Shown in pieces: positions 3,903 through 31,968 of a stretch of 32,088 bases of DNA. Every line of letters begins with the position of its first letter. Positions within the stretch are counted from its first letter, which is position 1. The translations under genes and the position numbers were made by a program. The notes below the pieces were generated by a model that saw nothing but the letters and a program-made list of their open reading frames with translations, was not told the DNA's origin and did not search any database. The DNA is from Candidatus Aenigmatarchaeota archaeon (GTDB lineage: Archaea; EX4484-52): contig JAGLPV010000014.1 of NCBI GenBank assembly GCA_023137195.1, positions 1 through 32,088 on the forward strand, given 5' to 3'.

Positions 3903-4308
3903 CTTACCTCCTTAATTAGAATGCGCGGAACAATTATATAAATGTATAGGCGGGTGTGGTTGTTGGATAAGACTTATTGAAGAAAGCTGTTTTTGTTCGC
4001 TTTTTATCTTATAACATCATATGACCGAAAAACAAATTGGTTAATGGTCATAAGGTTCAATTGAGTTTATGTTTTCCAAAAAATGGTTTTTAGTCTTACG
4101 AACATGTACAGGATATTCAATTGAAGAAATAATGTTTGTGGTGCTATTGCACAAGTTTCGATCAAATGGCTTGCTGATCTTGTTTAACGATTTATAGCGG
4201 GCTTGTTAAAAACAGCAAAATTTATATAATGTTCAATAATTATGCAGTAATATCGATATTTGTGAAAAAATCACAAAGTATATAAGTGTGTGTGCTATAG
4301 ACGATAGT

Positions 4309-5565
4309 ATGCTAATAGAATTAAAAGTTAAAAATTTTATGTCCTTTAAAGAAGAAACAATTTTTTCTATGGAACGAAGTAGTATTGACAAAGATAAATT
4401 AATTAATAACTTTACTAAAATCAATGAATTAAATATCCTTAAAAGTTCGATAATTTTAGGAGCAAATGCTTCTGGAAAATCTAATTTATTGTTAGCACTT
4501 GATTTTATTAAATGGTTGTTAAAAAGCTCAAGAACATTTGAAAAAAAACAGAAAATAAAATATTTTCCATTTAAACTAGATTCAAATTATAGAGAAGAGA
4601 AACCTATTTCTTTTCAAATTAAATTTATTTCTAATAATAATATTTATGCTTATGACATCAGTTTGCGTAAAAATATTAAAAAAACATCAGAATATGGATT
4701 TAAAATAATCTCTGAAAAATTAGAAAAAAATAATGTTTTAATTTATAATAGGAGAGAGAAAAATAAGTTTGAATTTAATCCTTCTGTTTCTGATGAAACA
4801 AGAATCACTTCAACAATTCTATATGAAAATGCTTTATTATTAAGTACTTCGGCAATAAAAAAAACAGAAAAATCATTAGAAGAAGCATACCAATGGTTTG
4901 ATGAAATTTTAGAAGTTAATATGGGCGGATTACTTAGTAAAGAAGCAACAATTGATAATTATAACAAGAATCCTAAATTCAAAACCTATTTAATGAATTA
5001 TTTAAAAAAAGCAGATTTGGGAAATATTACGGACTTAAAAATAAAAAAAAGAAAATTTACATTCCCAAAAGATCTTCCAGAAGACATAATACAAGAGTTT
5101 TTGAAAGAAAACAAATACATTATAGAAACATATCATTTAGATGAAAAAAAAGAAAATATTAAGTTTGATTTTGATATGGAAGAATCAAATGGAACAAAGA
5201 AATTCACATACTTACTAGGATATATTTATAACTTAATCAACCAGAACAAAGTATTAATTATTGATGAATTAGAAAATGGATTGCATCCAGAATTGTTAAA
5301 GCTGATTTTCCAAATAATACATAAAACTGATTGCAAAGCGCAATTAATTTCAACAACTCACTCTTATTCTTTATTACAATATGTAAATTCAGATAATGAT
5401 GAGGTTTTTAGAAGAGATCAAATTTGGTTTGCCAGAAAAAAGAAGGATATGTCAACTCAATTATATTCTTTAGTAAATATAGGCGGTATAAGAAAAGATT
5501 TGAGAATTTGGAAAGCCTATTTTGAGGGCAGATTAGAAGCATTTCCAAATATAAAATTTGAATAA
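4309..5565 (+). CDS. AAA family ATPase (AbiLi/RloA-like, OLD-type ABC ATPase)
   Basis: Walker A LGANASGKSN, Walker B VLIIDELENGLHPEL, QLISTTHS. The ORF opens at 4288 but MLIELKVKNFMSF at 4309 is the typical N-terminus. Confidence 0.88.
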   Translation: MLIELKVKNFMSFKEETIFSMERSSIDKDKLINNFTKINELNILKSSIILGANASGKSNLLLALDFIKWLLKSSRTFEKKQKIKYFPFKLDSNYREEKPISFQIKFISNNNIYAYDISLRKNIKKTSEYGFKIISEKLEKNNVLIYNRREKNKFEFNPSVSDETRITSTILYENALLLSTSAIKKTEKSLEEAYQWFDEILEVNMGGLLSKEATIDNYNKNPKFKTYLMNYLKKADLGNITDLKIKKRKFTFPKDLPEDIIQEFLKENKYIIETYHLDEKKENIKFDFDMEESNGTKKFTYLLGYIYNLINQNKVLIIDELENGLHPELLKLIFQIIHKTDCKAQLISTTHSYSLLQYVNSDNDEVFRRDQIWFARKKKDMSTQLYSLVNIGGIRKDLRIWKAYFEGRLEAFPNIKFE

Positions 5566-5566
5566 A

Positions 5567-6298
5567 ATGGCAAGAGATGAATCTGAAGTTATTCATATAG
5601 GGAGTGAGAAACCAAAAAAAGAAGTAGGCGGTGTGCTTGACTCAGAAAAAACTCTTTTTCATGGAATAAAGATGTTCTTATTTTGTGAGGGAAAAACAGA
5701 ATATAATTATTTTAAAGGGTTTGAAATAAATCAAGGCAATTCTAGATTAGAAATTATACCTCGTTTTCCAATTAATAACGAATGCGGTATTGAAAAACTA
5801 GTTGAACAGGTGTTGTCCTCTAAAGCAGAGGGAAAAGTAATTGTTAAATCCGATGAAAGTAAAATCATTCATGAAGTGAAAGATGGCGATGAATTTAATA
5901 TAATTTTTGATTGTGAAAAAAATTTTAATATGAATAAGAATGGTAAATCAAAAATGGATGAAGCAAAAGAACTACTTGGTGACGACAATACTTTATTTTT
6001 GTCAAATCACAATTTTGAAGTTTGGATATTGTGTCATTTCAAAAAACCTAATCGTTCTTGTAAATCAACGAACCTAATAAAACAAATACTAAAAGAAAGC
6101 AAGTGGGAAAAATATAAAAAAAATGATAAAGAGCTTTTTGATAAATTAAAGGATAAATTAGATTTAGCAATCCATAATGCAAATGAATTAATTGAAGAAA
6201 GAAAAAACGCAGGAATCAAAATCCATTCTATAAAGAGCAATCCTGTTACAGAAATAGGTATTTTGATTAAAAATATTAATTCTCAATTAATTGATTAA
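5567..6298 (+). CDS. RloB-like protein (AbiLii/RloB, TOPRIM-like)
   Basis: FLFCEGKTEYNYF, NIIFDCEKN, LSNHNFEVWILCHF, SNPVTEIGILI; starts 1 nt after the ATPase stop. Confidence 0.85.
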   Translation: MARDESEVIHIGSEKPKKEVGGVLDSEKTLFHGIKMFLFCEGKTEYNYFKGFEINQGNSRLEIIPRFPINNECGIEKLVEQVLSSKAEGKVIVKSDESKIIHEVKDGDEFNIIFDCEKNFNMNKNGKSKMDEAKELLGDDNTLFLSNHNFEVWILCHFKKPNRSCKSTNLIKQILKESKWEKYKKNDKELFDKLKDKLDLAIHNANELIEERKNAGIKIHSIKSNPVTEIGILIKNINSQLID

Positions 6299-6347
6299 CT
6301 CAACTTTTGAAATTTGCTATGCAAAACAGAGGAATTAACAATAAACA

Positions 6348-6363
6348 TACTCTTTTCTGAGTA
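6348..6363. promoter_or_regulatory. Inverted repeat TACTC-N6-GAGTA upstream of the HTH-RibK promoter
   Basis: Perfect 5-bp arms about 10 bp upstream of TATA-like ATTTAAATAT (6373-6382); start codon at 6401. Confidence 0.45.
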
Positions 6364-6400
6364 GCATAACATATTTAAATATATTGATTAATATTCTTGT

Positions 6401-7517
<1,117 letters not shown>

Positions 7518-7522
7518 AAAAT

Positions 7523-7942
7523 ATGAATGAAAAAAAAATAAGAATAGGTATTGTCGCTGCGGAATTTAACTTTGACCTAACGCAGGCAATGATAAAACTT
7601 GCAGAGGAACACGCAAAGTTCCTGAACGCGGAGGTTGTAGATATTATCTTGGTACCGGGGTGTTTTGAGATACCATTTGCATGTGCAAATACCATAAAAA
7701 GAAAAGATATTGATGCACTCGTTGCACTTGGCTCTGTTATTGAAGGGGCGACAAGCCATGATGAGATTGTAGCACAGCATTCGGCAAGAAAAATAATGGA
7801 CATTGCTCTTGAATACAACAAACCAATTGGATTCGGCATAACTGGACCAGGCATGAGCAGACTTGAAGGACACCAGAGAATCAAGAATGCCAAGAATGCA
7901 GTTGAATCTGCTGTAAAACTTGCAAGACGGTTTAATAAATGA
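7523..7942 (+). CDS. ribH: 6,7-dimethyl-8-ribityllumazine synthase
   Basis: [35 protein letters not shown]; start may be GTG 7514 or ATG 7523. Confidence 0.95.
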
Positions 7943-9162
7943 GCATAATATCTATGGCTGAATTTGAGTTTGCAAGTATCAAAAAGGCAATTGAAGACAT
8001 CCAAAAGGGCAAAATAATTATAGTTGCGGATGACGAGAATAGGGAAAACGAAGGAGATCTTATCTGCGCTGCCGAAAAAGTTAGTCCTAAAATCATTAAT
8101 TTCATGGCAAAATATGGCAGGGGGCTTATCTGTACGCCTATGGAAAAAGAACGCCTTGAAGAGATTGAGATTCCGCAGATGGTTGTAAATAATACAGATA
8201 AGCACGAGACTGCGTTCACTGTTTCCATTGATGCAAAAAAGGAGACTACAACCGGCATTTCTGCATATGACAGGGCGGCAACTATTCTAAAAGCAATTGA
8301 TTCGCAAACCAAACCATCTGATTTTTCAAGACCAGGACATGTATTTCCATTAAAAGCAGTGCCTGGCGGTGTACTGGTAAGAGCAGGGCATACTGAAGCG
8401 GCTGTTGATTTTGCCCGGCTGGCAGGGTTGTATCCGGCTGGTGTAATCTGCGAGATAATGAAAGATGACGGGACTATGGCAAGAGTACCACAGTTGTTTG
8501 AATTTTCCAAAAAGCATAATATTTCTATTGTTACAATTGAAGATTTGATAAAGTACAGGGGAATAAATGAGAAACTTATTGAGCGTATCTCTGATGTGAA
8601 TCTGCCTACAAAATACGGTAGTTTTAGGGCTGTCTCTTATCAATCAAAAATTGACAGGCTGTGTCATGTTGCTCTTGTGAAAGGAAGTGTTAAATCAAAA
8701 GAAACTGTGCTGGTCAGGGTTCATTCAGAATGTCTTACGGGAGATGTTTTTGGGTCGCTCCGTTGTGATTGTGGAGACCAGCTTAGAGAATCCATGAAAA
8801 TGGTTAATGATGAAGGTATTGGTGTGGTGTTGTACATGCGTCAGGAAGGTAGAGGTATTGGGCTTTCAAACAAAATGAGAGCTTATGAATTGCAGGATAA
8901 TGGGCTTGATACGGTCGAAGCAAACGAGAAGCTCGGTTTTGACGCTGATTTGCGTGATTATGGTATCGGCGCGCAGATTCTTTCAGATTTAGGATTAAAG
9001 AAGATTAAGCTTATTACAAACAATCCAAGAAAGATCACAGGGCTTTCCGGTTACGGGCTTGAAATTATAGAAACAATTCCTATTCAAATAAAGCCAAACA
9101 AGAACAATAAAAAGTACCTGATGACCAAGCAAAAAAAACTTGGTCATAGATTAGGATTATAA
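7939..9162 (+). CDS. ribBA: Bifunctional DHBP synthase / GTP cyclohydrolase II
   Basis: RibB motifs ([30 protein letters not shown]) and GCH-II motifs ([33 protein letters not shown]). Start could be 7954. Confidence 0.95.
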
Positions 9163-9164
9163 TT

Positions 9165-10205
9165 ATGAGGCATATTTTTAGCGGACCATTATTTCTCGGG
9201 AAGAATCTTGAATTTGTTGAAGATGGTTTTGTTGTTGTTGAAGATGGCATGATTGTTGATTGTGGCAGAGGCAGGAAAAACAAGGCAAAGAGACATTCTA
9301 TTATACCTGCATTCATCAATGCACATACTCATATTGGAGATTATTTTCTGCGGGAGAAGTTTACTGGTATGCCTCTTGATAAAGTCTGCGGGAAAGATGG
9401 GCTGAAAAATAAATATTTGAATTCGACGGGCGATGATGTTGTGATTGAAGGGATGAAGTCTGCAATCATTGAAATGATGCGTACCGGGACATGTTGTTTT
9501 TCTGATTTTCGTGAAGGTGGGATTAAAGGCATTAAATTACTTAGGAAAGCACTTTCTAATCATGATGGCATAAGTGCTAAAATATATGGAAGACCAGATA
9601 ATCCTGATGAAGCGTTTCTGGGTGAATGTGATGGCTATGGTGCAAGAAGTATTAGAGCAGAAAAAATAAAGAGGAAAAAAGGAAAATCTATCGGGATTCA
9701 TGTATGCGAAACAAAGAGTGGTGAGTTAAAAGAAGCAATGGGCTTCGACCCGAATTTTCTTGTGCATATGAATTGTGCAGGAAAGGAAGAGATAAGTAAA
9801 GTCGCAGGCATGGATATTCCTGTTGTTGTCTGCCCGCGTTCCAATGCATATTTTGGTCTGAAATTGCCGGATATACCATTGATGCTTGAAGAAGGGATTT
9901 TGGTTTGCATAGGGACAGATAATGCAATGACTAATAGTTTGAGCATGATTTCTGAGATGGAATTTGTGTTCAGGTGGTTTATGGATAAAGTAGATGCTAT
10001 AGACATCTTAAAGATGGCAACAGTTAACCCGGCAAAAGTTTTTGGATGGAATTGTGGGTTTATAGAAAAAGGAGCTGATGCAAATCTCCTTCTTTTGGAT
10101 GAGTCTTTTTTGAAGACGCCAAATCCTTATGCAACTGTGGTTTTGAGGCTTTCGGCGCAAAAGATGGAAATTATGTTGGAGGGTAAATATGCATGTAATT
10201 GTTAA
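9165..10205 (+). CDS. Metal-dependent amidohydrolase (SAH/chlorohydrolase/cytosine-deaminase-like)
   Basis: PAFINAHTHIGD (HxH), GIHVCE, LVHMN, CIGTDNA, and terminal KGADANLLLLD; all canonical metal ligands present. Confidence 0.9.
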   Translation: MRHIFSGPLFLGKNLEFVEDGFVVVEDGMIVDCGRGRKNKAKRHSIIPAFINAHTHIGDYFLREKFTGMPLDKVCGKDGLKNKYLNSTGDDVVIEGMKSAIIEMMRTGTCCFSDFREGGIKGIKLLRKALSNHDGISAKIYGRPDNPDEAFLGECDGYGARSIRAEKIKRKKGKSIGIHVCETKSGELKEAMGFDPNFLVHMNCAGKEEISKVAGMDIPVVVCPRSNAYFGLKLPDIPLMLEEGILVCIGTDNAMTNSLSMISEMEFVFRWFMDKVDAIDILKMATVNPAKVFGWNCGFIEKGADANLLLLDESFLKTPNPYATVVLRLSAQKMEIMLEGKYACNC

Positions 10206-10773
10206 TTGCGCAATGAGCCTTGACGGTAGGATAGAAGGGAAGTTTTCAAATGACAAGGACTGGAAAAGAGTCTATGAACTCAGGGCAGAATGCGATGCTG
10301 TAATGGTTGGAATAAATACTATTTTGAAGGATAATTCCGGACTTACTTCTCACGGAGTAGGCAAAAATCCTCTGATTGTTGTTGTTGACAGCAAATGCAG
10401 AATACCGTCCGATGCACGTGTGTTTGAAGGTAATGTTGTTGTTGGTGTCTGCGAAGGAGTAAAGACGGATGCTGTTTGGAATAAGGCAAAAGTGATTGCA
10501 TGTGGAAAAAAACAGGTTGATTTGAAAGTACTTGTTGAGGAGCTCGCTTTAATGGGTGTTGAGAAATTGATGGTTGAGGGAGGAGGCATGTTGATTGCTT
10601 CAATGTTGGATTTGGGGCTTGTCGATCAGGTAAATGTTGCTGTTGCTCCGGTGATATTGGGCAGAGGAATTAAGTTGGTTGAGGACGAATTGAAATTGCC
10701 GGTTAATCTTAAATTGAAAGATATCCTGGAGCTTGATGAAATTGTTGTTTTGGAATATGTTGTTTTGAAATGA
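10189..10773 (+). CDS. arfC: 2,5-diamino-6-ribosylamino-pyrimidinone 5'-phosphate reductase (RibD C-terminal / ArfC-like)
   Basis: VNCAMSLDGRIE, DAVMVGINTILKDN, LMVEGGGMLIASMLDLGLVDQ; overlaps the amidohydrolase by 17 nt. Confidence 0.9.
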   Translation: MHVIVNCAMSLDGRIEGKFSNDKDWKRVYELRAECDAVMVGINTILKDNSGLTSHGVGKNPLIVVVDSKCRIPSDARVFEGNVVVGVCEGVKTDAVWNKAKVIACGKKQVDLKVLVEELALMGVEKLMVEGGGMLIASMLDLGLVDQVNVAVAPVILGRGIKLVEDELKLPVNLKLKDILELDEIVVLEYVVLK

Positions 10774-10841
10774 TTGTACCACACGATAAACTGTGGGGCG
10801 TTTATGTTTTTCCCGGCAAAAAACAAAACATTTAAATAATT

Positions 10842-10863
10842 ATTATGCATTATAATGCATAAT
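10842..10863. promoter_or_regulatory. 22-bp perfect palindrome ATTATGCATTATAATGCATAAT, putative autoregulatory operator
   Basis: Lies between TATA-like TTTAAATAAT (10831-10840) and the ATG at 10862, overlapping the start codon. Confidence 0.65.
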
Positions 10864-11356
10864 GGCAAGACCAAAGAAAATAAAGATTGTAAATTTTGAA
10901 CCGGGCGTGACCTATTTTAAACCAAGGGCAGTTCCTCTAAATACACTACAGGAAGTCGAACTAACCATCGAGGAATTGGAGTCGCTAAGACTATCCGACC
11001 TTGAAGAATTAAGCCAAACCGATTCTGCCCAAAAAATGCACATACACCAGTCGACCTTTCAAAGGACCTTGTCAAGAGCAAGACAAAAGATAACTGATGC
11101 TTTAGTTAATGGAAAAGCGATAAAAATTAAAGGAGGTGATTACAGAATGCCAGGCGGAGACCAAACAGGACCACCAGTTGGCGGTGGTTTTAGTAGAAGA
11201 GGAGGAGGACGAGGCGGCAGATTTTTTGCTGCCGGAGCAGTAGGTGGAATTTGCATATGCCCTTCATGCAACTATGAACAAACCCATGCGAGAGGACTAC
11301 CATGCAACCAAATAAAATGTCCTAAATGCGGAGCACTAATGACAAGAAAAGTATAA
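10862..11356 (+). CDS. DUF134 (UPF0251) putative DNA-binding protein with C-terminal zinc ribbon
   Basis: MARPKK...L.IEELESLRLSDLEELSQ..SAQKMHIHQSTFQRTLSRARQKITDALVNGKAIKIKGGDY; C-terminal CPSC...CPKC. Confidence 0.9.
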   Translation: MARPKKIKIVNFEPGVTYFKPRAVPLNTLQEVELTIEELESLRLSDLEELSQTDSAQKMHIHQSTFQRTLSRARQKITDALVNGKAIKIKGGDYRMPGGDQTGPPVGGGFSRRGGGRGGRFFAAGAVGGICICPSCNYEQTHARGLPCNQIKCPKCGALMTRKV

Positions 11357-11363
11357 CTCCAAC

Positions 11364-11405
11364 TTGCACTGTTTTTTAGGGGATTTCCCCTATTCAGTGT
11401 CGCAA
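11364..11405. repeat. Composite hairpin (CACTG...TAGGGG-attt-CCCCTA...CAGTG)
   Basis: Inner arms 11377-11382/11387-11392, outer arms 11367-11371/11395-11399, then TTG/CAA; intergenic, no U-tract. Confidence 0.5.
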
Positions 11406-11451
11406 TAGAAATCAAATAAAAATTAAATTAAACAAAAAAAGGTGAATAGAG

Positions 11452-12186
11452 ATGAAAATAGCAATATCAACACAGGAAGATAATATCGACAGTAAAATTG
11501 ACCAGAGATTTGGAAGATGTATGTATTTTCTTATAGTCGACATAAAAAACAAGAAAATAGCAAATGCAGAGGCTTTTGAAAATGAGGGCAGGATACAAGG
11601 ACACGGCGCGGGAATAAAAGCGGCGCAACAGGTTGGAGAACTGGACGTTGAAAACGTAATAACAGGAGCAGTCGGACCTAACGCAGAAAATGTGCTTAAC
11701 CAGATGGGCGTGAAAATATATCATGCCTCGGGAATAGCCAAAGAAGCAGTTGAGGATTTTATCAATGACAAGTTAGGCAAAATAACAGAAATTTCAGAAC
11801 CGCACCCAACATCAGCAAAACCAGATGAAGAGGAAGAAAAAGAAGACAAAATATTCATTCCTTTGTTGGACAACATGGGAGAAGATTCTCAAGTTTCGCC
11901 GCATTTCGGACATGCTCCTTTTTTTGGGTTGTATGATTTAAAGACGAAAAAATTGACTATAACAGAGAATAAACTTGACCATAGCGACCCGCTTAAGTCA
12001 CCTGTCGACCAGATTGTCGAGGCAGTCCATCCGACAATTGTTCTTTCAGAGATGATGGGGCAAAGAGCAGTCAAATTATTTTCTGAAAAAGGAATTTCTC
12101 TTAAGACAGGACCATTTAAAACAGTAAAGGAATTGATAGAAAATTCAGATAAGATGGAAGATTTGACCAAAGACTGTGGACATTAA
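11452..12186 (+). CDS. Two-domain NifX/NafY-like (dinitrogenase Fe-Mo cofactor biosynthesis family) protein
   Basis: Two copies of the fold: IDQRFGRCMYFLIVDI...ENVITGAVGPNAENVLNQMG and VSPHFGHAPFFGLYDL...TIVLSEMMGQRAVKLF. Confidence 0.88.
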   Translation: MKIAISTQEDNIDSKIDQRFGRCMYFLIVDIKNKKIANAEAFENEGRIQGHGAGIKAAQQVGELDVENVITGAVGPNAENVLNQMGVKIYHASGIAKEAVEDFINDKLGKITEISEPHPTSAKPDEEEEKEDKIFIPLLDNMGEDSQVSPHFGHAPFFGLYDLKTKKLTITENKLDHSDPLKSPVDQIVEAVHPTIVLSEMMGQRAVKLFSEKGISLKTGPFKTVKELIENSDKMEDLTKDCGH

Positions 12187-12209
12187 ATAAAAAGAGGTAA
12201 GCCGACAAC

Positions 12210-13052
12210 ATGAAAATAATAGGGATAACAGGAGGAAAAGGAGGAACAGGCAAATCAACTATTGCCACTGCTCTTGCCTATAGTCTGGCAAAAAACAAGA
12301 AAGTGCTTTTGGTAGATGCAGATGTGGATTGTCCAAATGACCATCTTCTTTTAAACATCAAAAGAACATTAATCAAAAAAGTCAACCAGAGAATTCCTGA
12401 ATGGAACTTAAGCAAATGTACCAAATGCGGTCTATGCGGAACTGTGTGCAAGTCCAATGCAATAGTCTCGATAAAAAACAAAACTCCTATTTTTATGAAA
12501 CAGCAATGTAATGGTTGCGGTGCATGCAAAATTATATGCCCAACTGGAGCAATCAGCTGGGATGAAAAAGAAATAGGTGAGATTTATTCAGGGAATAATT
12601 ACAATATTGATTTTTTGTCAGGTCAGTTAAAAACAAACGAACCTGTCTCTGAATTTATAGTAAACTCATTGAATGAAATCATTGAAGAAAAGAAAAAAGA
12701 TTATGACTATGTTATAATAGATACTGCTGCAGGAACTCATTGTCCGGTTATAGCGGCACTCGAAAACTGCGACTTGACCTTTGCAGTAACTGAACCCACT
12801 CCACTAGGGAGCCATGATATGGAACTGATATTGGGGCTATCCAAAAAACTCAAAATTCCTATGTCTATTGTACTTAACAGGTCGGATATAGGAGATGAAA
12901 AAATGACCGAACAGCTTGCCCGAAAATACAATACAAAAATACTGGCAAAAATACCTTATTCAAAAGAGATTATTGATTGCTATTCGAAAGGAAAACCAAT
13001 ACCGGAAAAATACATTAATGATTTATTAATGGAGGCAACTAAACATGAATGA
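12210..13052 (+). CDS. MinD-superfamily P-loop ATPase with inserted 2x[4Fe-4S] ferredoxin domain
   Basis: GGKGGTGKST, LLVDADVDCPN, CTKCGLCGTVC and CNGCGACKIICP, YVIIDTAAGTHCPVIAAL. Confidence 0.93.
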   Translation: MKIIGITGGKGGTGKSTIATALAYSLAKNKKVLLVDADVDCPNDHLLLNIKRTLIKKVNQRIPEWNLSKCTKCGLCGTVCKSNAIVSIKNKTPIFMKQQCNGCGACKIICPTGAISWDEKEIGEIYSGNNYNIDFLSGQLKTNEPVSEFIVNSLNEIIEEKKKDYDYVIIDTAAGTHCPVIAALENCDLTFAVTEPTPLGSHDMELILGLSKKLKIPMSIVLNRSDIGDEKMTEQLARKYNTKILAKIPYSKEIIDCYSKGKPIPEKYINDLLMEATKHE

Positions 13053-14286
13053 TGCTCTAAAGAAAGGACAAAAGGCGGCAGGGATTGCAACAATAGCAAC
13101 TATTTTGCTTGCAGCAGTCAAAGGAATCGTCGGCATCATTTCAGGAAACATTCTTATTATAGCAGATGCTATTCACAGCGCGGCAGATGTTCTTGCAATA
13201 TTTGCTTCATGGTATGGTCTGAAAATTTCACAGAGAAAACCTGATGAAAAATTTCCTTATGGCTATTATAAAGCAGAAAATATTTCAACATTAATTGTAT
13301 CTGTATTTATCTTTTTCATAGCATACAGACTTTTTACAGAAAGCTATAGCCGAATTTGGGTAGTGGAGGAATTAAAAATACCTTTTATTGTATTATCTGT
13401 CTCTTTAATGTCGGCAATTGTTTCTTACAGAATAGCAAAATACGAGGAAAAGATAGGCACCCAAATAAATTCGCAAAGCCTGATGGCAAATTCTTATGAA
13501 TCAAAAATGGATGTTGTAACATCCCTGATAGTTTTTGTGGGTTTGATTTTATCGTATCTAAAAATAAATTATGTGGCGGGTGTTATTGGAATTCTGTTTT
13601 CCTTTTTGATAGTAAAGATTGGCTACCAAAATGCTAAAATCAGTATCTTTTCTCTTATGGATGCAAGCCCGGATACGAAACTGGAAAAGAATATTGAAAA
13701 AATAATTCTGAATGTCCAGGGGGTGATGGATATTTCCCATATAAAACTAAGGCAATCTGGGTTGTTTATTTTTGGAGTAGCAAATATCAAAGTACTCAAG
13801 CATCTTGATGTTAAACGAGCTCATCAGATAGCTGATATCATAGAAGAAAAAATCAAGAAAAAATACCCGCACATTGAATCCTTTATTATTCGGGTAGAGC
13901 CATACAAACCGGAAAAACAAAAAATAATCATTCCTTTGGACGAAAACAAAGGTCTTGACTCAAGAGTTACCGGGCATTTTGGAAGAGCAAAGTATTTTTT
14001 ATTTGTTCTGATAAAGGATAAGAAAATTGAATCATGGCACATAAAAAGCAATCCTTTCATCAATGAAAAGGCAAGGGCTGGTCTTGATGCGGCAAAATTT
14101 GTTCTGGAGGAAAAAATTGATGTGGTTGTCCTGCAAAAAATCGGGGAAATTGCTTTCCATACGTTAAGAGACAACTTTGTTGATTTGTACATTACTCATG
14201 GAAAAACTCCTAAGACAGTTATTCACAATCTAATTAATAACAAATTAAAAAGGCTTCAAAAGCCAACACATGCAAGTGATAAATAA
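13045..14286 (+). CDS. Cation diffusion facilitator (CDF) fused to a C-terminal NifX-like domain
   Basis: CDF core (ADAIHSAADVLAIFASWYGLKIS, YGYYKAENIS); C-terminal IIIPLDENKGLDSRVTGHFGRAKYFLFVLI...VVVLQKIGEIAFHTL. Confidence 0.9.
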   Translation: MNDALKKGQKAAGIATIATILLAAVKGIVGIISGNILIIADAIHSAADVLAIFASWYGLKISQRKPDEKFPYGYYKAENISTLIVSVFIFFIAYRLFTESYSRIWVVEELKIPFIVLSVSLMSAIVSYRIAKYEEKIGTQINSQSLMANSYESKMDVVTSLIVFVGLILSYLKINYVAGVIGILFSFLIVKIGYQNAKISIFSLMDASPDTKLEKNIEKIILNVQGVMDISHIKLRQSGLFIFGVANIKVLKHLDVKRAHQIADIIEEKIKKKYPHIESFIIRVEPYKPEKQKIIIPLDENKGLDSRVTGHFGRAKYFLFVLIKDKKIESWHIKSNPFINEKARAGLDAAKFVLEEKIDVVVLQKIGEIAFHTLRDNFVDLYITHGKTPKTVIHNLINNKLKRLQKPTHASDK

Positions 14287-14287
14287 A

Positions 14288-15166
14288 ATGAAAACAATAA
14301 CAATATTATCGGGGAAAGGAGGCGTTGGGAAAAGTAGTATCACTGCTTCTTTGGCAATAACTTTAGCAAAAAGAAGAAGAATCATCTGTGCAGACTGCGA
14401 TGTAGATGCATCAAATCTTGCGCTGGTATTTGGAATCAAAGAGAAAGATTTTGAAGAATACCTGCCGATTTCAACAATTCAGAAGGCAGTGTTTGATCTC
14501 TCAAAATGTAATTCATGCAGGAAGTGCTTTGAAGAATGTTATTTTGATGCGATTGAGTTGGTCAATGACAAGCCAAAATTGAAGGAGTTTAGCTGTGAAG
14601 GGTGTGGCGTGTGCCAGCTGGTTTGTCCTGTGGATGCGATAAAACTAGTGGATGAAAAAAATGCAAAAATAGGTTATGCCAAGACAAAATATGGTTTCAG
14701 GATTTTTTCAGCGCAGTTGGATGTCGGGGCTTCGGGGTCCGGAAAAATAGTTTCTGCGGTCAAGAAGAAAGCAGAAGCATTGGCGCAGGATGCAGAGATA
14801 ATGCTTGTTGATTCATCGGCAGGTGTTGGTTGTCCTGTGATTGCATCTGTATCAGGAAGTGATTATGCTCTCCTGGTAACTGAACCCACGCCGTCTGGAT
14901 TTTCTGACATGAAAAGAGCTATAAAAATAGTCAATCACTTCAATATTCCTTATGGCATTGTTGTAAATAAGCATGATATAAATGAAGAATATACAAAAAG
15001 GATTGAAGAATTTGCAGAAAAAAACAATGCGCAAATTCTCTCGAAGATACCTTATGATAAAGCATTTGTCAAGGCTCTTGTGAATCTGGTTCCTGTTGTG
15101 GTTTTTGATAAAAAGTATGAGAAATTGTTTGAAGAGATTGGCAGTAAAATTTTGCTACGGCTATAA
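14288..15166 (+). CDS. Second MinD-superfamily P-loop ATPase with inserted ferredoxin domain
   Basis: SGKGGVGKSS, ADCDVDASNLAL, CNSCRKCFEEC and CEGCGVCQLVCP, LVDSSAGVGCPVIASV; ORF opens at 14270, likely start 14288. Confidence 0.93.
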   Translation: MKTITILSGKGGVGKSSITASLAITLAKRRRIICADCDVDASNLALVFGIKEKDFEEYLPISTIQKAVFDLSKCNSCRKCFEECYFDAIELVNDKPKLKEFSCEGCGVCQLVCPVDAIKLVDEKNAKIGYAKTKYGFRIFSAQLDVGASGSGKIVSAVKKKAEALAQDAEIMLVDSSAGVGCPVIASVSGSDYALLVTEPTPSGFSDMKRAIKIVNHFNIPYGIVVNKHDINEEYTKRIEEFAEKNNAQILSKIPYDKAFVKALVNLVPVVVFDKKYEKLFEEIGSKILLRL

Positions 15167-30831: not shown

Positions 30832-31968
30832 TTATAGCTCCAGCGTTCTCAAAATAGACTCTGCGCAATAAAGCTTGTTTCTCTCTTTTTTGTCTGCTTC
30901 AACAAGAACGCCCGTCTTTAGAAAAGAATCCACAATTATTCTTTTTGCTGTTGGGTAAGTGGTATCTAAAACATCTGCTGCTTTTGATATTGTTATGAAA
31001 GGATTATTGAAAAGACAATCAATTAAATTTATTGCCTGATTGCTCGTTGTAACTCCCTGTATTTTTTTCCTGTACTCTTCCCTGATGTCGTATAGTTTTT
31101 TTGCCCGGTTAATTGCATCTTCTGATTGGCTCTGTACGCCCAAAAGAAAGAATTTTATCAATTCTTCAAAGCATCCTTCCTGATTTACTCTCAAAAGAAG
31201 AGATTGATATTCTGTCCTGTTTTTTTCAAAATAAGCACTCAGATAAAGTAGAGGGTGCAAAATCACTTTTTTTTTGCACAACAGCAATGTTATGAGAGAC
31301 CTTCCTATCCTGCCATTCCCGTCGCAGAAAGGATGTATGGTTTCAAACTGGTAATGCATTAAAGCTGCCTGAACCAGAGAGGGAACATTATCTTCATTGA
31401 TGTAATCTTCTAGTTCTTTCATTAAACCCGGCACTTTTGCAGGCGGAGGCGGCACATAAGTGGCATCTTCCATCCTGTCTGTAAAACCTATCCAGTTTTG
31501 CACATTCCTGAATTTTCCCGGCATCTTGTTATATCCTCTGACATTATTGGACATTAGGATTAAATGCATCTTTTTTATCAAATCAAGAGTAATTCTTTCT
31601 TCTTTGGAATCAAGGGCATAGTTTAGGGCAGATATATAATTTTTCACTTCAACTACATCTTCGTCTTTGCTTTCATCATGCTGAATCTGCGATTTATACA
31701 ACTCAGAAATTGTTATTCTCGTGCCCTCTATTCTCGAACTCATTACAGCTTCCCTGTTGATGTAAGGCACAATCAACAGGTTCGGATTCGGAAGACGTTC
31801 CCCTGCACCAGAAAGTTCTCCTATCTTGTGCGTGGCTTTCGATAATAAGAGCAATAATTTGTTATCGTAATTTATGTGTGTTGGTATTTTGCATGGGATG
31901 AATGTGTAACTTTCTTCTGTTATTTTTTCTAATTTTCCGGCTTTTCCATTGAATTTTTCCAAATCCAT
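30832..31968 (-). CDS. Fic family protein with C-terminal HTH, class II-like
   Basis: HPFCDGNGRIGR active site, SSRIEG inhibitory motif, C-terminal ITISKAADVLDTTYPTAKRIIVDSFLKTGVL. Confidence 0.93.
   Translation of the reverse strand: MDLEKFNGKAGKLEKITEESYTFIPCKIPTHINYDNKLLLLLSKATHKIGELSGAGERLPNPNLLIVPYINREAVMSSRIEGTRITISELYKSQIQHDESKDEDVVEVKNYISALNYALDSKEERITLDLIKKMHLILMSNNVRGYNKMPGKFRNVQNWIGFTDRMEDATYVPPPPAKVPGLMKELEDYINEDNVPSLVQAALMHYQFETIHPFCDGNGRIGRSLITLLLCKKKVILHPLLYLSAYFEKNRTEYQSLLLRVNQEGCFEELIKFFLLGVQSQSEDAINRAKKLYDIREEYRKKIQGVTTSNQAINLIDCLFNNPFITISKAADVLDTTYPTAKRIIVDSFLKTGVLVEADKKERNKLYCAESILRTLEL

Follow-up and report, generated by a model that had tools for sequence, protein, structure and literature searches.

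A PRK07213-like amidohydrolase encoded in an archaeal riboflavin operon is a candidate for the missing deaminase of riboflavin biosynthesis

We propose that the amidohydrolase gene located between ribBA and arfC in an archaeal riboflavin operon encodes an enzyme that acts as a deaminase on the product of ArfC, with or without its phosphate, and we put the probability of this assignment at about 0.7. The proposal is computational, rather than biochemical or genetic, in origin. A deaminase function had been suggested by a sequence-only reading of the window (i.e. the entire 32,088-nucleotide stretch of DNA analysed here), and our computational tests support this reading and extend it to a family-wide hypothesis. 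According to this hypothesis, PRK07213-like proteins would perform the missing deamination on the archaeal route to riboflavin and F420, with a fold unrelated to that of the CMP/dCMP-deaminases, and the assignment of this step to DUF447 would be wrong or secondary. We consider this wider hypothesis slightly favored over its negation.

The operon comprises six co-directional genes:

6401..7054, + strand: RbkR-like protein with a winged HTH and a CTP-dependent riboflavin kinase domain (PF01982, 139 bits)
7050..7517, + strand: ribC, archaeal riboflavin synthase (TIGR01506, 177 bits, cut-off 100.6)
7529..7942, + strand: ribH, lumazine synthase (TIGR00114, 136.9 bits)
7939..9162, + strand: ribBA, DHBP synthase/GTP cyclohydrolase II (PF00926 and PF00925; NF006803, 644.6 bits, cut-off 569)
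9165..10205, + strand: amidohydrolase of the PRK07213-like archaeal family, proposed ArfC-product deaminase (Amidohydro_1; PRK07213, 240 bits)
10189..10773, + strand: arfC, stand-alone RibD_C-type 2,5-diamino-6-ribosylaminopyrimidinone phosphate reductase (PF01872, 134 bits)

The intervals between these genes are -5, 11, -4, 2 and -17 nt if ribC is assumed to start at ATT. The sequence-only reading had described six closely packed genes running in one direction, with the amidohydrolase gene between ribBA and arfC and overlapping the latter by 17 nt, and the coordinates bear this out. They also agree with its description of a complete reading frame (ATG start, 346 residues) that contains the motifs HTH (residues 54-56), IHVCE (178-182), LVHMN (199-203) and GTDNA (250-254). 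The first protein of the operon, which matches PRK14165 (wHTH/riboflavin kinase) best among the NCBIfam models, with 200 bits and thus under the cut-off of 279, is the probable operon regulator and kinase. For ribC, the TIGR01506 match begins at profile position 12 when translation is read from the listed ORF start (ATG 7083); in window positions 7041-7083, the conserved N-terminus lies in frame from ATT 7050, which overlaps the ribK stop. ATT 7050 is probably the true start, and the ATG at 7083 reported by ORF finders would remove the conserved N-terminus. For ribH, an alternative GTG start at 7514 is possible. ArfC scores 140.5 bits against TIGR01508, which is below the equivalog cut-off of 186.45, while the RibD_C domain itself is recognized; the TIGR01508 scores are 162-164 in two other Nanohalarchaeota and 237-252 in Halobacteriota.

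Immediately upstream of the operon (4288-6298), an AAA_21 ATPase and an RloB-like protein are encoded by overlapping genes and resemble RloA/RloB or AbiEii-type defence modules. After arfC follows a cluster (10862-15166) coding for a DUF134 protein, two NifX/FeMo-cofactor-like proteins, one of them as a fusion with a cation-efflux transporter, and two Mrp/NifH-like ATPases carrying inserted ferredoxin domains. A Fic/DOC family protein is encoded on the minus strand at 30832-31968.

The product of 9165-10205 matches Pfam Amidohydro_1 with 104.1 bits (gathering cut-off 25). Of the curated models, the one that fits it best, along almost its entire length, is NCBIfam NF005552/PRK07213 (‘chlorohydrolase’); because the score of 240 bits is under the equivalog cut-off of 294, we class the protein as PRK07213-like rather than as a member. 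Euryarchaeal relatives score 247-326 bits against the same model and thus straddle its cut-off. We found no published characterization of this family in the open-licence literature. The window protein keeps the entire six-residue mononuclear deaminase site of heterocycle aminohydrolases (HxH, HxxE, one more His and an Asp), and in our alignment H54, H56, H179, E182, H201 and D252 do not vary in any of the 59 family members or the 11 outgroup proteins. The alignment also reveals a set of near-invariant, family-specific residues (D59, K81, R116, E117, R143, R225, N253 and R328), and the basic residues among them would fit a phosphorylated, polar substrate. The conserved motifs are located as follows:

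9318..9332, + strand: NAHTH metal-binding motif, residues 52-56, with the invariant H54 and H56 (sequence)
9507..9521, + strand: FREGG motif, residues 115-119, family-specific and not in SAH/MTA-type relatives (alignment)
9699..9710, + strand: HVCE, with H179 as metal ligand and E182 as proton shuttle by analogy (alignment)
9765..9773, + strand: HMN, with H201 (alignment)
9912..9935, + strand: GTDNAMTN, with D252 (alignment)

An AlphaFold2 model of the protein built with 17 sequences is confident (pLDDT 90.7, pTM 0.92). In a Foldseek search with this model, its closest folds were heterocycle aminohydrolases, with TM0936 and adenosine-type, aminofutalosine, guanine and isocytosine-specific (Vcz) deaminases among the matches. 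The ArfC product has a substituted isocytosine as its ring and, therefore, the chemistry required is that of this class of deaminases. Other than one dihydroorotase-like protein, no further amidohydrolase domains were found in the source assembly (57 contigs with a total of 1.42 Mb; completeness, 84.8%).

The source genome belongs to Candidatus Nanohalarchaeota, and the closest named relatives of the protein are from assemblies of this phylum (60-64% identity). In three of these genomes (G001, G002 and G004), which belong to another family of Nanohalarchaeota, the orthologue lies directly after ribBA. The recurrence of this gene order argues that the linkage is conserved and not due to chance. 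The position of arfC varies: G002 has it about 0.6 kb downstream of the orthologue and G004 about 6 kb off, and in G001 the two genes are on different contigs. In G002, the approximately 0.6 kb between the two genes (L003, 2541-3160) contain a broken reading frame, as if an inserted gene had decayed. Among 34 Nanohalarchaeota genomes, arfC (PF01872) is present in five (G000, G001, G002, G004 and G005, with completeness of 85, 68, 81, 87 and 79%, respectively). In the survey for co-occurrence that the sequence-only reading had proposed, the amidohydrolase orthologue was detected in four of these five genomes, and the 29 genomes that lack arfC had no orthologue either. The exception is G005, in which arfC is on a 3.9 kb contig (L070, G005:C110) and the amidohydrolase was not detected, possibly because the assembly is incomplete. 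Since the two genes are physically linked, their co-occurrence in Nanohalarchaeota is weaker evidence than these counts suggest.

The sequence-only reading had also stated that no RibD N-terminal deaminase domain is present, and named such a deaminase elsewhere in the genome as a finding that would speak against its proposal. The ArfC of the operon has the RibD_C domain only, and PF00383 was not found in the whole source assembly; thus, the absence reaches beyond the operon. Likewise, PF00383 is absent from all five arfC-bearing Nanohalarchaeota, and a search for DUF447 found it in none of the 34 Nanohalarchaeota, these five included. It is unlikely that the same gene has been missed by chance in all five genomes (about 2.5 in 10,000 if the assemblies are independent).

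Outside the Nanohalarchaeota, a scan of named genomes identified relatives with 36-38% identity in ANME-1, Methanosarcinales, Methanolliviera and haloarchaea. We determined the distribution of the family in Halobacteriota and Nanohalarchaeota. Using a profile built from the relatives in the named genomes and a threshold in Halobacteriota of E below 1e-40, a family member was detected in 108 of 110 Halobacteriota genomes (56 of 59 Halobacteriales), nearly always as a single copy. Some matches were weaker (E about 1e-57 to 1e-75), and we considered that these could be SAH/MTA-type proteins. This was rejected on bit scores, because nine tested family members, the weakest included, score 195-410 bits and SAH/MTA-type proteins at most 106; the weaker matches are, therefore, taken as divergent family members. 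arfC is likewise present in 108 of the 110 genomes, and two of them (G141 and G173) have arfC and no detected family member, for which incomplete assemblies are a possible cause. Because both genes are near-universal in Halobacteriota, their co-occurrence there carries little weight; genes of near-universal occurrence will correlate with every pathway that is itself near-universal, which counts against our proposal. In a tree with 11 COG0402 proteins (SAH/MTA-type, from the same phylum) as outgroup, the Nanohalarchaeota and euryarchaeal members form one clade (SH-aLRT 100) in which the Nanohalarchaeota are sister to the rest; the tree was made with a quick method and gave a long-branch warning, so its exact branching is not secure. 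The window gene is not peculiar to its operon: it belongs, as the branch found in Nanohalarchaeota, to a euryarchaeal family of near-universal occurrence, and this family is linked to arfC elsewhere too.

When the positions of the two genes were cross-tabulated over the 110 Halobacteriota genomes, they were at most 2.3 kb apart in 16 genomes, compared to about 0.5 pairs expected under random placement. Eleven of these pairs share a strand, with about 1.4 kb between the genes; another pair is separated by 2.2 kb, and the remaining four are divergent, with a spacing of 113-116 bp. Judging from the representatives that we read, the 11 same-strand clusters are of the amidohydrolase-Usp-CBS-arfC type, and the four divergent pairs have the same Usp and CBS genes behind the amidohydrolase gene. 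These arrangements differ from the Nanohalarchaeota operon. Given that members of a clade share ancestry, we count the 16 pairs as two or three independent arrangements in addition to that operon. In one such cluster (L165), both products exceed their equivalog cut-offs (amidohydrolase, 297.5 against 294 for PRK07213; ArfC, 236.9 against 186 for TIGR01508). The genes between or beside amidohydrolase and arfC in L165 (5914-9101), L166, L167, L176, L177 and L168-L170 code for a Usp and a protein with four CBS domains; this CBS protein could be a sensor of an adenine nucleotide or of a signal from the flavin pathway. A Usp gene is also downstream of the amidohydrolase gene in haloarchaea, where the context includes an HD-domain gene, Usp and birA and is near cofD. 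In about 90 of the 108 genomes, the family member does not adjoin arfC.

The most serious competitor is DUF447. The sequence-only reading had held that the archaeal deaminase is unassigned. This needs a correction, since a predicted candidate, HVO_2483/MJ0699, has been published (PMC8305020). That work counts three remaining gaps in the riboflavin synthesis of haloarchaea and has candidates for two of these; HVO_2483 (34% identity to MJ0699) appears there as a prediction of Rodionova 2017, placed after arfC and before the phosphatase gap (PMC8305020, Table 6). The conserved haloarchaeal gene order is cofD, DUS, CitG, DUF447, S17e and asd, with HD, amidohydrolase and Usp beyond cofD; the asd side was read in four loci. 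Because cofD is HVO_2479 and asd is HVO_2487, this order implies that HVO_2483 should be DUF447 (PF04289), and we infer the identity of HVO_2483/MJ0699 from this synteny. The gene order in Halomicrobium (L059) had suggested instead that HVO_2483 is the amidohydrolase; this was rejected, because asd is on the DUF447 side in the four haloarchaeal loci. DUF447 could be the general archaeal deaminase, with the amidohydrolase family having another role in flavin, F420 or nucleotide metabolism and being at most recruited to the pathway in Nanohalarchaeota. DUF447 is present in 103 of 110 Halobacteriota and in four of four archaeal control genomes, and in two ANME-1-type genomes (L172 in G194 and L173 in G181) it is the divergent neighbour of arfC at a distance of 169-180 bp, an independent link to the pathway. 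The wide distribution together with this adjacency makes DUF447 a serious rival. However, it was found in none of the 34 Nanohalarchaeota, those with arfC included. In addition, it is missing from two haloarchaea (G058 and G085) that keep both arfC and the amidohydrolase gene and whose largest contigs cover most of the genome, i.e. they are nearly closed; at the conserved locus (L185 in G058, 5114-8354; L186 in G085, 9892-13132), S17e is 47 bp from DUS, and DUF447 and the CitG-like gene are missing. Finally, DUF447 has a weak match to the PNPOx domain, which suggests a flavin-binding split barrel, a fold for which, to our knowledge, no hydrolytic deamination is known. Weighing these lines of evidence, we regard DUF447 as rather unlikely to be the general deaminase.

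Two further explanations concern the window protein itself. It could be a deaminase of the SAH/MTA/5'-deoxyadenosine or guanine type that happens to lie in the operon without a role in the pathway, and the nearest solved structures by fold and sequence indeed include the SAH/MTA deaminase TM0936 and AtzA. The sequence-only reading had named strong orthology to such an enzyme as evidence against its proposal, and we found none. The protein scores 36-74 bits against curated models of these types with cut-offs of 375-779 (PRK15493, 36 against 779; PRK06038, 70 against 609; PRK07228, 49 against 522; guanine deaminase TIGR02967, 46.5 against 375.4). Moreover, a Glu located 27 residues after HxH in 11 of 11 SAH/MTA-type outgroup proteins, which we take to be the equivalent of Glu84 of TM0936 that binds the ribose hydroxyls, gives way to Leu or Met in those family members that we inspected. 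The sub-cut-off scores and the replaced Glu argue against an SAH/MTA deaminase identity, the family is split from SAH/MTA-type proteins of the same phylum with the full support given above, and the linkage to rib genes recurs; a deaminase of these types without a pathway role is, in our estimate, highly improbable. Alternatively, the protein could be a damage-control hydrolase that acts on a toxic or unstable side product rather than the pathway deaminase. Diaminopyrimidine intermediates are reactive, and accessory hydrolases are known in other pathways. But in this case the deamination step would have no known candidate in the source genome, in which neither PF00383 nor DUF447 was found, and an essential step would better account for the presence of the family in 108 of 110 Halobacteriota genomes. 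Thus, a damage-control function appears very unlikely, and we favor a role for the amidohydrolase as the pathway deaminase.

In archaea, the established order is reduction followed by deamination (cited in PMC8305020, PMC3403918). RibBA generates 2,5-diamino-6-ribosylamino-4(3H)-pyrimidinone 5'-phosphate, and ArfC reduces its ribosyl side chain. If our assignment is correct, the amidohydrolase would then use a water molecule activated on one metal ion to exchange the 2-amino group of the isocytosine-like ring for oxygen with the release of ammonia. In this mechanism, H54, H56, H179 and D252 would hold the metal and E182 and H201 would move protons, while K81, R116, R143, R225 and R328 probably hold the side chain or phosphate and the ring. 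The predicted product, 5-amino-6-ribitylamino-2,4-pyrimidinedione or its 5'-phosphate, depending on the phosphorylation state of the intermediate, is the compound from which both lumazine and F420 are made; the latter carries electrons in methanogenesis. After deamination, an unassigned phosphatase and then lumazine synthase would act. We propose the same role for the whole PRK07213-like archaeal family.

The deamination step is one of several remaining gaps in the archaeal flavin pathway, for which a prediction is available (PMC8305020), and its product also feeds F420 synthesis. If our proposal is true, a gene annotated as ‘chlorohydrolase’ in nearly all sampled Halobacteriota gains a core function, an independent route to the deamination of this intermediate is established and the published candidate needs to be revisited. 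The proposal also makes the gap directly testable with one gene and one auxotroph.

The window protein and the PRK07213 family share catalytic as well as family-specific residues and form one clade with a support of 100. However, the window protein, which is 34-38% identical to the euryarchaeal members and sister to all of them, is below the cut-off of 294, and its gene is part of a full riboflavin operon, unlike those of the euryarchaeal members examined. Among characterized enzymes, the TM0936-type SAH/MTA deaminases (PDB 1P1M, 1J6P and 2PLM) have the same fold and the six catalytic residues and provide the best Foldseek match (TM 0.80, 21% identity), while the PRK07213-like family has no such ribose-holding Glu, is about 60 residues shorter and has a different set of conserved Arg and Lys residues. 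The isocytosine-specific deaminase Vcz (PDB 7WW2 and 8IS4) has the fold and mechanism class in common with the window protein, and isocytosine corresponds to the ring part of the ArfC product; by contrast, the two proteins are only 18% identical, and Vcz has no known role in riboflavin synthesis. DUF447, which has been proposed for the same gap and is near arfC in some archaea, is an unrelated small protein and absent from Nanohalarchaeota. Lastly, the deaminase domain of bacterial RibD and fungal Rib2, which have the CMP/dCMP-deaminase fold, carry out the reaction that we propose here, and in the case of Rib2 reduction also comes first. Their fold is unrelated to that of the amidohydrolase, and the source assembly has no PF00383 match. 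Thus, deamination by PRK07213-like proteins would represent a non-orthologous solution to this reaction within the known amidohydrolase superfamily.
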